The notes under the pieces are model-generated. The model ran no database searches. It saw only the letters and a list, made by a program, of their open reading frames with translations, and was not told the DNA's origin. A stretch of DNA of 64,000 bases from Streptomyces natalensis ATCC 27448 (GTDB lineage: Bacteria > Actinomycetota > Actinomycetes > Streptomycetales > Streptomycetaceae): positions 496,001 to 560,000 of the forward strand of contig NZ_JRKI01000003.1 in assembly GCF_000935125.1 (NCBI RefSeq), given 5' to 3'. Below are positions 3,665 to 54,950 of the stretch, one piece after another; within the stretch, counting starts at the first letter, position 1, and each line of letters starts with the position of its first letter. A program made the position numbers and the translations under genes.

Positions 3665-4018
3665 CGCCCAAGAAACTCGACACAACCCGGCGCAGGTGCA
3701 GCCAGGCCGGGCCTGTCTTTGCTCACAAGGGGTGGGGGTGTGCGTCTCGGGGGCCGGGAGGACCGTCATTCCGGTTCGCTCGCGCCATCCGGCCGCCGTG
3801 TACTGGCCGACCGGGCCGTGTCCGGACGGCTCGGTCCATGCGTGCTGCTCGACCGGTGGAGGGGAGAAGCGGGCTACCCGGTGGTCCTAGGGGCAGTGCG
3901 GCTCTGCTTGCAGTGCGCGAGGCCGCCTGGGACACCAACGCCCTGGTCTTGTCGGTGAAGCTGCTCACCGGTGGATGCCACGGCAGCGGTCTGCGCGCCC
4001 AAGTAACGGGGCCATTCC
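3665..4018. other. Intergenic stretch after the transposase remnant; no gene recognised
   Basis: The open frames here have no recognisable domain and no ribosome binding site. The stretch is probably degraded insertion-sequence flank. Confidence 0.5.
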
Positions 4019-34829: not shown

Positions 34830-34865
34830 GGGCGGTCGGTTTCACGTGAAACCGACCGCCCTTTT
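34830..34865 (+). terminator. Perfect 32-bp palindrome with U tract: terminator of pyrE with a parS core
   Basis: GGGCGGTCGG + parS core + CCGACCGCCC is a perfect 16-bp inverted repeat followed by TTTT. The same DNA is a complete parS 14-mer at its centre (34839-34852). Confidence 0.85.
34839..34852. other. parS site (ParB-binding)
   Basis: GTTTCACGTGAAAC, the perfect Streptomyces-type parS 14-mer, at the tip of the pyrE terminator palindrome. Confidence 0.88.
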
Positions 34866-34985
34866 GCATGAAGGCCGGACGGGCGATGTGGAGCGAACAA
34901 CCGAGTCTGGGAGGATGGCCCCGGCGAAAGTCCTCGCCCCCTGGTCAGGGAAGAACGCACACCCGCCTACACAAGGAGCGGACAG

Positions 34986-36008
34986 ATGCCCATCGCAACT
35001 CCCGAGGTCTACAACGAGATGCTCGACCGGGCGAAGGCAGGCAAGTTCGCCTACCCGGCCATCAACGTCACCTCGACCCAGACCCTGCACGCCGCACTGC
35101 GTGGTTTCGCGGAGGCCGAGAGCGACGGCATCATCCAGATTTCCACCGGCGGTGCGGAGTTCCTGGGCGGCCAGTACAACAAGGACATGGTCACCGGTGC
35201 GGTGGCGCTCGCCGAGTTCGCGCATGTCGTGGCCGCCAAGTACGACATCACCGTCGCGCTGCACACCGACCACTGCCCCAAGGACAAGCTCGACGGGTAC
35301 GTCCGTCCGCTCCTGGACGTCTCCGCGGAGCGCGTCGCCAAGGGTCTGAACCCGCTCTTCCAGTCCCACATGTGGGACGGCTCGGCCGAGACCCTCGCCG
35401 ACAACCTGTCCATCGGCCAGGAGCTGCTCGCCAAGGCCGCCGCCGCCAAGATCATCCTTGAGGTCGAGATCACCCCGACCGGCGGCGAGGAGGACGGCGT
35501 CACCCACGAGATCAACGACGAGCTCTACACCACGGTCGACGACGCGATCCGTACCGCCGAGGCGCTGGGCCTGGGCGAGAAGGGCCGCTACCTGCTCGCC
35601 GCCTCCTTCGGCAACGTCCACGGCGTCTACAAGCCGGGCAACGTCGTGCTGCGCCCCGAGCTGCTCAGGGACCTCCAGGAGGGCGTGGCCGACCGGTTCG
35701 GCAAGCAGAACCCGTTCGACTTCGTCTTCCACGGCGGCTCCGGCTCCACCGAGCAGGAGATCGCCACCGCGCTGGAGAACGGCGTGGTCAAGATGAACCT
35801 CGACACCGACACCCAGTACGCCTTCACGCGCCCGGTCGCGGACCACATGTTCCGCAACTACGACGGCGTGCTGAAGGTCGACGGCGAGGTCGGCAACAAG
35901 AAGACCTACGACCCGCGCAGCTGGGGCAAGCTGGCCGAGGCCGGTATGGCCAAGCGCGTGACCGAGGCCTGCGCCAACCTGCGCTCCACGGGCACCAAGA
36001 TCAAGTAA
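34986..36008 (+). CDS. fba: Class II fructose-bisphosphate aldolase
   Basis: 340 residues. It splits fructose 1,6-bisphosphate in glycolysis and gluconeogenesis and uses zinc. Seen: VALHTDHCPKDKL near 92 (zinc His), the central GRYLLAASFGNVHGVYKPG near 200 and the phosphate loop HGGSGSTEQE near 250 with NLDTDTQYAF near 280. This is the standard type for actinobacteria. A GGAGCGGAC ribosome binding site precedes the ATG. It is separated from pyrE by the parS-terminator palindrome and ends with a strong hairpin. Confidence 0.97.
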   Translation: MPIATPEVYNEMLDRAKAGKFAYPAINVTSTQTLHAALRGFAEAESDGIIQISTGGAEFLGGQYNKDMVTGAVALAEFAHVVAAKYDITVALHTDHCPKDKLDGYVRPLLDVSAERVAKGLNPLFQSHMWDGSAETLADNLSIGQELLAKAAAAKIILEVEITPTGGEEDGVTHEINDELYTTVDDAIRTAEALGLGEKGRYLLAASFGNVHGVYKPGNVVLRPELLRDLQEGVADRFGKQNPFDFVFHGGSGSTEQEIATALENGVVKMNLDTDTQYAFTRPVADHMFRNYDGVLKVDGEVGNKKTYDPRSWGKLAEAGMAKRVTEACANLRSTGTKIK

Positions 36009-38443: not shown

Positions 38444-39409
38444 ATGTCGCAGCCATTTCCTCTTTCTCCCGCCGTGACCGAAGATTCCGGCGGCAATGTT
38501 TCACGTGAAACCCTCGCATTCGCCGCCGACGATGTTTCACGTGAAACACCGGCCGCCGGCGCGGCCGTAGCGGCCCCCAAGGCCCCCGTGGCCCTCGTGG
38601 CCCCCGATCTGAGCATCGGCAGCACCACCACGACCCCGTACGAGGACTACGTCCAGGCGAGCGTCCTCACCCACCTCCAGCACCCGCTCTCCGACGATCC
38701 CGGCGAGATGGTCTTTCTGGTGACCACTCAGGTGATGGAGCTGTGGTTCACGGTCATCGTGCACGAGTGGTGCACGGCCGCCGAGGCGCTGCGCCGCGAC
38801 GATCTGACGGTGGCCATGGACGCCCTGCGCCGCTCCACCTACGAGCTGGAGGCGTTGAACGCCGCCTGGAAGCCGCTCGCCCGGCTGACCCCGGAGCAGT
38901 TCAACGCCTACCGCAGCGCGCTCGGCGAGGGCTCCGGGTTCCAGTCCGCGATGTACCGGCGGCTGGAGTTCCTGCTGGGCGAGAAGTCCGCGGCGATGCT
39001 GGTGCCGCACCGTGGCGCTCCGCGCGAGTACGCCGAGCTGGAGAAGGCGCTCCAGGAGCCGAGCCTGTGGGACGAGGTGCTGCGGCTGCTCGCGCGCCGT
39101 GGCCATGCGGTCCCTGAGGCCGTGCTCCGGCGGGACCTGGGGCTGCGCTATGAGTCGGACCCGGGCGTCGAGGCCGTATGGGCCGAGATCTACGCGGGCC
39201 CGCAGGAGTCCGAACTGGTCCTTCTCGGCGAGGCGTTGACCGATGTCGGCGAGCTGGTGTGGCGATGGCGCAACGACCACCTCGTCGCGACCCGGCGGGC
39301 GATGGGCTCGAAAATGGGCACCGGCGGCTCCGCGGGCGTGGCCTGGCTGGAGAAGCGGGCCCGTAAGAACGTCTTCCCCGAGCTGTGGACGGCGCGCAGC
39401 CATGTCTGA
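38444..39409 (+). CDS. kynA: Tryptophan 2,3-dioxygenase (N-terminus encodes two parS sites)
   Basis: 321 residues. It opens the indole ring of tryptophan to N-formylkynurenine with a heme. The core starts about residue 52 (STTTTPYEDYVQASVLTHLQHPL, a TDO pattern). Other landmarks are EMVFLVTTQVMELWFTVIVHEW and a C-terminal GTGGSAGVAWLEKRARKNVFPELW. Residues 1-50 are a nonconserved lead that includes VSRET twice, because two perfect parS sites are in frame there. The ATG has GAGGAG 7 bp upstream. The stop overlaps the kynU start by 8 nt. Confidence 0.93.
   Translation: MSQPFPLSPAVTEDSGGNVSRETLAFAADDVSRETPAAGAAVAAPKAPVALVAPDLSIGSTTTTPYEDYVQASVLTHLQHPLSDDPGEMVFLVTTQVMELWFTVIVHEWCTAAEALRRDDLTVAMDALRRSTYELEALNAAWKPLARLTPEQFNAYRSALGEGSGFQSAMYRRLEFLLGEKSAAMLVPHRGAPREYAELEKALQEPSLWDEVLRLLARRGHAVPEAVLRRDLGLRYESDPGVEAVWAEIYAGPQESELVLLGEALTDVGELVWRWRNDHLVATRRAMGSKMGTGGSAGVAWLEKRARKNVFPELWTARSHV
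38498..38511. other. parS site inside kynA
   Basis: Perfect GTTTCACGTGAAAC in frame, encoding part of NVSRETL. Confidence 0.88.
38534..38547. other. parS site inside kynA (second)
   Basis: Perfect GTTTCACGTGAAAC in frame, encoding part of DVSRETP, 36 bp after the first copy (start to start). Confidence 0.88.
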
Positions 39410-54906: not shown

Positions 54907-54920
54907 GTTTCACGTGAAAC
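54907..54920. other. parS site (ParB-binding)
   Basis: Perfect GTTTCACGTGAAAC, 24 bp after the VTC gene stop. Confidence 0.9.
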
Positions 54921-54936
54921 CGGCATCCTCGGCAAT

Positions 54937-54950
54937 GTTTCACGTGAAAC
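54937..54950. other. parS site (ParB-binding), second of a pair
   Basis: Perfect GTTTCACGTGAAAC, 30 bp after the previous copy (start to start). Confidence 0.9.

Follow-up and report, generated by a model that had tools for sequence, protein, structure and literature searches.

The chromosomes of Streptomyces coelicolor and Streptomyces venezuelae are reported to carry 24 and 16–17 parS sites, respectively (PMC4852455, PMC12511625), and nine of the ten parS sites of Corynebacterium glutamicum are described as intergenic (PMC7083940). Streptomyces transcript 3' ends mapped by term-seq are reported to have 3–4 U in the first 10 nt past the hairpin and to lie at a median of 66–76 nt from the CDS (PMC12207403). 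Among the transcript ends of S. clavuligerus, the median fold of the more structured peak is given as −32 kcal/mol over 40 nt, and highly structured ends without U runs are also described from Streptomyces term-seq (PMC8269248). A word search of the main text of two Streptomyces ParB papers (PMC12511625, PMC4852455) returned no mention of terminators, and the mentions in excerpts of PMC5521831 refer to vectors. No earlier description of parS used as a terminator was found in the open-access literature.

Here we analysed the intergenic gap between pyrE and fba, which begins with an ATG on the same strand, in a window of Streptomyces natalensis ATCC 27448 (the window being the whole 64,000-nt stretch of DNA examined; Table 1). 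The preliminary description had reported a perfect palindrome after pyrE with parS at its exact centre and TTTT behind it, and direct reading confirmed this arrangement. The palindrome, GGGCGGTCGGTTTCACGTGAAACCGACCGCCC, consists of two 16-nt halves with 0 mismatches, and the TTTT follows immediately 3' of it. It starts 48 nt past the pyrE stop codon, the U run ends 84 nt past the stop and 124 nt lie between the palindrome and fba. The reading we favour, with a probability of roughly three in four (0.74), is that of a composite element, in which the core is kept by ParB and the arms are kept as a 3'-end or terminator hairpin.

Table 1 Features of the pyrE–fba region and the evidence for each (positions in the window).
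Feature	Position	Strand	Evidence or remark
pyrE, orotate phosphoribosyltransferase, 182 aa	34233–34781	+	NCBIfam TIGR00336, 120.3 bits (cut-off 106.8); stop codon 34779–34781
Perfect 32-bp palindrome (parS core with a 9-bp arm on each side)	34830–34861		Direct reading, fold, arm covariation in 56 loci
parS core GTTTCACGTGAAAC, 14 bp	34839–34852		Exact match; exact in 53/56 loci
Left arm of RNA stem	34830–34838	+	Pairs with 34853–34861; covarying
Right arm of RNA stem	34853–34861	+	Pairs with 34830–34838; covarying
Short U run after stem	34862–34865	+	Transcript 3' end expected at about 34864–34868
fba, class II fructose-bisphosphate aldolase, next gene	34986–36008	+	NCBIfam NF006628, 486.3 bits (cut-off 297)

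The core belongs to a large parS set. It is one of five exact copies in the window, where a mean of 0.07 would be expected even at up to two mismatches. The source assembly (8.65 Mb, 63 contigs) contains 65 exact parS sites, or 67 at up to one mismatch, and 58 of the 65 were placed on the contig that includes the window (C3) and analysed. On this contig, parB lies at C3:295240–295767, dnaA at C3:301341–303098 and the pyrE parS at C3:530839, the latter thus being ~235 kb from parB. The pyrE site belongs to the oriC-proximal parS set of a ParB-encoding genome, in the outer part of that set, and its nearest neighbour lies within the same window at a distance of 3.7 kb. ParB would be expected to bind it. 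In S. nigrescens (G041), the pyrE core has one mismatch and two exact parS sites lie ~9 kb away. The pyrE site is more isolated in three further genomes, G042 and G043 (closest listed parS of the contig ~195 and ~205 kb away) and G044 (pyrE site at 4,064,001, next listed parS at 4,529,330, ~465 kb away).

The number of sites varies widely. The 65 exact copies in S. natalensis far exceed the counts published for S. coelicolor and S. venezuelae; S. nigrescens has 46 sites and four other Streptomyces genomes have 9–14. Pairs or triplets of parS with a spacing of ~19–60 bp are common (38498–38547 and 54907–54950 in the window, and many places on C3), and, once transcribed, such neighbours might also base-pair with one another.

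The pyrE palindrome is neither a product of chance nor peculiar to S. natalensis ATCC 27448. We compared the window with 80 named loci chosen by PyrE similarity (the best 80 of 279) and scored a core as present at no more than two mismatches to parS within the pyrE–fba gap. A parS-like core occurred in 56 of these 81 loci and was absent from 25; a pyrE parS is present in most of the Streptomyces relatives examined. It starts 13–157 nt past the pyrE stop (median 57; for L037, which has four parS copies, the first only was used). The preliminary description had suggested comparing the palindrome arms across other Streptomyces, and this comparison revealed a near-invariant core next to arms whose letters vary yet mostly still pair. 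There were 44 different 9-nt left arms among the 56 parS-bearing loci. Nevertheless, 466 of 560 arm positions were complementary, versus a mean of 269 and a maximum of 302 in 2000 re-dealings of the right arms among loci. In an ungapped alignment of 38 columns and 55 distinct rows, all 12 arm pairs had changes on both sides and 87.3% of arm cells were paired. Double-changed cells numbered 199 over all 17 pairs (198 in the arms) versus 65.1 in shuffled alignments, with 0 of 500 shuffles reaching 199. The covariation score was 0.559 versus 0.145 when shuffled, and at most 0.176 when the partner was slid by one to three columns. This arm covariation over 56 loci rules out a chance palindrome. Counting against the composite reading, nine of the 56 loci had fewer than 7 of 10 Watson–Crick arm pairs. 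As the stem re-pairs when letters change and the tip keeps the ParB-site sequence, one palindrome appears to serve two jobs.

The arm changes are spread over the tree and are not one inheritance counted repeatedly. A quick tree built from pyrE and fba comprised 80 rows, L105 being omitted because no fba was found there. Parsimony on this tree gave at least 91 switches from one Watson–Crick type to another, summed over the 10 inner arm pairs and counted among Watson–Crick rows, a figure that is not a count of independent events because neighbouring pairs may change in one event. The presence of parS needed only two changes on this tree, the rows without it being the single row from Nonomuraea and a Streptomyces clade of 23 loci.

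In one genome, the core was also found to follow the local parS dialect. The pyrE core of Streptomyces sp. PH10-H1 (locus L101, genome G046) reads GTTCCACGTGGAAC. Searching this genome with GTTYCACGTGRAAC returned 15 sites, of which 9 read GTTCCACGTGGAAC (including the pyrE copy), 4 were mixed and 2 had the usual form. The pyrE core thus has the commonest parS spelling of PH10-H1 and so tracks the ParB site there, which supports its identity as parS. The arms of this copy remain complementary. By the same finding, L101 was rejected as a candidate for a hairpin kept without parS. The parS set of PH10-H1 as a whole has mostly shifted to GTTCCACGTGGAAC (9/15), with mixed half-site forms alongside.

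These patterns are consistent with two separable constraints. The 14-bp centre would be a ParB nucleation site conserved at the DNA level, and we propose that it cannot drift because ParB reads it. Upon transcription from pyrE, the whole palindrome is predicted to fold into a hairpin of ~14–17 bp that is capped by an ACGU loop and followed by a short run of U. This hairpin most likely defines or protects the transcript's 3' end, as a terminator of the U-poor Streptomyces type. Selection at the RNA level would then keep the GC-rich arms complementary while their sequence drifts. As ParB would constrain the core and the RNA hairpin the arms, that is, different letters, the two could be mutated separately.

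Arm pairing could in principle arise without such selection. Template-switch correction of quasi-palindromes is an established process and would yield covariation without function. A parS close to parB (C3:296950) and its flank-matched counterparts, four genomes in all, have partial arms with 5–8 of 10 pairs, as this process would allow, and partial arms are therefore not confined to gene ends. However, the neighbouring near-parB parS (C3:297236), flank-matched in G041, G042 and G044, has hardly any arms in the same number of genomes (1–3 of 10 pairs), and palindromes therefore do not simply grow at parS. Two further features speak against template switching, the T-rich positions after the right arm and the mismatches in the arms, which on the pyrE strand were G-U in 33 cases and A-C in 14 where composition predicts 45:39 (p = 0.017), a test that is only suggestive because the counts are not independent. 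We consider a mutational origin of the pairing very improbable, and infer that the arms are kept paired by selection on the RNA.

The RNA-level properties agree with this. The segment 34815–34875 folds at −40.2 kcal/mol (z = −7.2), with 0 of 200 shuffles equally stable, and the stem can be extended, as read by eye, by G34829-U34862, A34828-U34863 and A34827-U34864. As in an intrinsic terminator, the hairpin is stable and GC-rich, has a small loop and a covarying stem, and lies just 3' of pyrE on the transcribed strand. Taking the most stable 46-nt fold of each of the 56 gaps with parS, the median was −33.75 kcal/mol. With the count started at arm position 10, the 46 well-paired loci had 1–5 T in 10 nt, with a mean of 3.0. 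Three observations were less favourable. A simple terminator scan of the window did not list the pyrE parS hairpin, perhaps because some of its U's are engaged with A's 5' of the stem, leaving few T's in the tail window. Tails were U-poor (1–2 T in the 10 nt counted) in 19 of the 46 well-paired loci, and in 9 of the 56 parS-bearing loci the strongest hairpin of the gap lay away from parS.

Those U-poor tails, together with the published structured Streptomyces ends without U runs (PMC8269248), would suit a hairpin that is real but acts in processing or stability, or as an attenuator of read-through into fba, and is not a strict terminator. We rate this as the least probable of the readings weighed here, because the T enrichment immediately 3' of the stem and the spacing from the stop codon fit termination sites. 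The hairpin probably terminates pyrE transcripts in the cell.

The preliminary description had claimed that the palindrome is a terminator hairpin and a ParB site in one. At the level of evolution, this double role appears to be the best supported reading: the core is conserved and follows the parS spelling of its genome, the arms covary as a stem, and the position past the stop and the U content fit published Streptomyces transcript ends. The cellular side of the claim, termination and ParB occupancy, would be expected if this reading holds.

Two further observations concern structured RNA in this gap. No credible Rfam match was obtained; two microRNA-family hits scored far below their gathering thresholds (22.6 vs 72 and 23.8 vs 69), and one of them overlaps the pyrE hairpin. 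In addition, a separate GGGGGCGACGATGACGTCGCCCCC-like hairpin occurs in the leader just before fba in several of the loci L032–L111. In at least seven loci, mostly ones without parS, it is stronger than any other hairpin of the gap. Its counterpart in the window (34905–34950) folded no better than shuffles.

The arms could instead act on the DNA, with a longer palindrome aiding ParB loading or cruciform extrusion at a distant parS and the RNA hairpin as a by-product. Perfect palindromy is expected of a dimer site, and the isolated pyrE sites of G042, G043 and G044 might profit from improvement. The argument from isolation does not extend to S. natalensis or S. nigrescens, with other parS sites 3.7 and ~9 kb away, respectively. 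Speaking against a DNA-level role, most of the 58 parS on C3 have no arms that reach past the first few flanking bases (49 with fewer than 8 of 10 complementary flanking pairs). Furthermore, the arm sequence is not conserved and, on the pyrE strand, G-U mismatches are favoured over A-C. We regard this DNA-level alternative as improbable.

Long arms do recur at a minority of parS sites. We surveyed 137 sites in stretches of five Streptomyces genomes, with G045 (14 sites) left out and 13 of the 14 sites of G044 recovered. On C3, at least 8 of 10 flanking pairs were complementary at 9 of 58 sites, versus a mean of 1.7 (maximum 8 in 3000) after re-dealing. Over the five genomes such long arms occurred at 17 of 137 sites, about an eighth, versus a mean of 1.9 (maximum 8 in 3000). 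An upstream stop codon no more than 100 nt away was not significantly more frequent among the long-armed sites (13/17) than among the others (67/120; Fisher test, p = 0.12). Since so many of the other sites also lie near stops, closeness to gene ends characterises parS in general.

Another parS of the contig, C3:254074, shows parS-tipped and plain hairpins after the same gene. In S. natalensis, a parS-tipped hairpin with a six-U tail lies 56 nt past the stop of an aminotransferase-like gene (its best NCBIfam match is below the cut-off of that model). In the relative G036, the hairpin after the same gene is likewise tipped by parS, 89 nt past the stop, but its arms differ and its tail is U-rich. 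In two others (G035, G018), the place is taken by an ordinary GC-rich hairpin that has a U run but no parS. Only S. natalensis and G036 carried the parS among the 30 loci scanned, 5 of which were folded. After this gene, the two hairpin types thus appear interchangeable; the two relatives with an ordinary terminator also argue against arms that serve the DNA only. Two other genes gave a different picture. Counterparts of the gene at C3:379330 had a parS 15–60 nt past the stop in 3 of 29 relatives (L152, L167, L171) with only 2–6 of 10 arm pairs, which counts against the composite reading, and no parS followed the gene at C3:387368 in any of 29 relatives. For both genes, several of the downstream stretches folded (16 of 60 loci, the two in S. 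natalensis included) hold ordinary hairpins. In L120 and L126, a parS lies upstream of the C3:387368 counterpart. The Streptomyces genome L126 has a parS core at 3891–3904 with 14 of 14 flanking pairs complementary, ~600 nt 5' of the query gene.

The clade of 23 loci without a pyrE parS had weaker hairpins in the pyrE–fba gap (median of the best hairpin −21.5 kcal/mol, versus −33.75 kcal/mol in parS-bearing loci). A best hairpin at −23 kcal/mol or below was present in 10 of these 23 loci compared to 56/56 with parS, and in 5 of the 10 it was the separate hairpin in the fba leader. This counts against the composite reading and suggests that Streptomyces can do without a strong terminator after pyrE. 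That hairpin strength and parS fall together in this one clade would also be expected if the arms acted on the DNA, the alternative judged improbable above.

We also compared the gene contexts of parS, using a home-made codon-usage caller. The 116 intergenic sites were over-represented in convergent gaps (42, versus 13.3 expected from gap length) and rare in divergent gaps (4 versus 33.3), with tandem gaps as expected (70 versus 69.4). The surveyed stretches had been chosen for their parS content, and the choice was narrow in G042 and G043. With neighbouring sites counted once, the numbers were 24 convergent, 4 divergent and 45 tandem versus 8.4, 21.0 and 43.7 (p = 5e−10), and for clusters in S. 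natalensis and S. nigrescens alone they were 16, 4 and 31 versus 5.7, 16.4 and 28.9 (p = 7e−7). This suggests a placement rule in the five Streptomyces genomes, by which parS is rare in divergent (promoter) gaps and over-represented in convergent (terminator) gaps. Avoidance of promoters would make sense because ParB bound at two intergenic parS of Pseudomonas aeruginosa is reported to repress the adjacent genes (PMC7022226).

The favoured composite reading bears on how ParB complexes coexist with transcription. The preliminary description had further suggested that ParB could affect transcription through the site or be displaced by it; ParB-gated read-through between pyrE and fba would be one such effect and is speculative. 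A broader class of centromere-terminators, combining ParB loading and termination on one palindrome, seems unlikely; in it, ParB, for example in large sporulation complexes, would be a roadblock that tightens pyrE–fba termination, and termination after parS would shield the DNA beyond from RNA polymerase. The pyrE element may offer a natural, genus-widespread site with separable ParB and RNA-hairpin constraints.

Compared to described systems, the element shares the exact 14-bp core, the multi-site set around parB/dnaA and the presence in most relatives examined with the chromosomal parS (ParABS) of Streptomyces. It differs in its distance of ~235 kb from parB and in forming the apex of a covarying hairpin stem. 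With the U-poor intrinsic terminators known from Streptomyces term-seq it has in common a long GC-rich hairpin, few U's and a location tens of nt past the stop; unlike in these, the loop and the upper stem consist of a fixed sequence recognised by ParB and do not vary freely. The DNA uptake sequences of Neisseria and Pasteurellaceae are similar in that a motif for DNA recognition also contributes to a 3' hairpin; the terminator role proposed for them has been termed contentious (PMC2346458). In uptake sequences, however, inverted-repeat copies of the motif make the hairpin, whereas in the pyrE element a single self-palindromic motif is the tip and separate arms are the stem.
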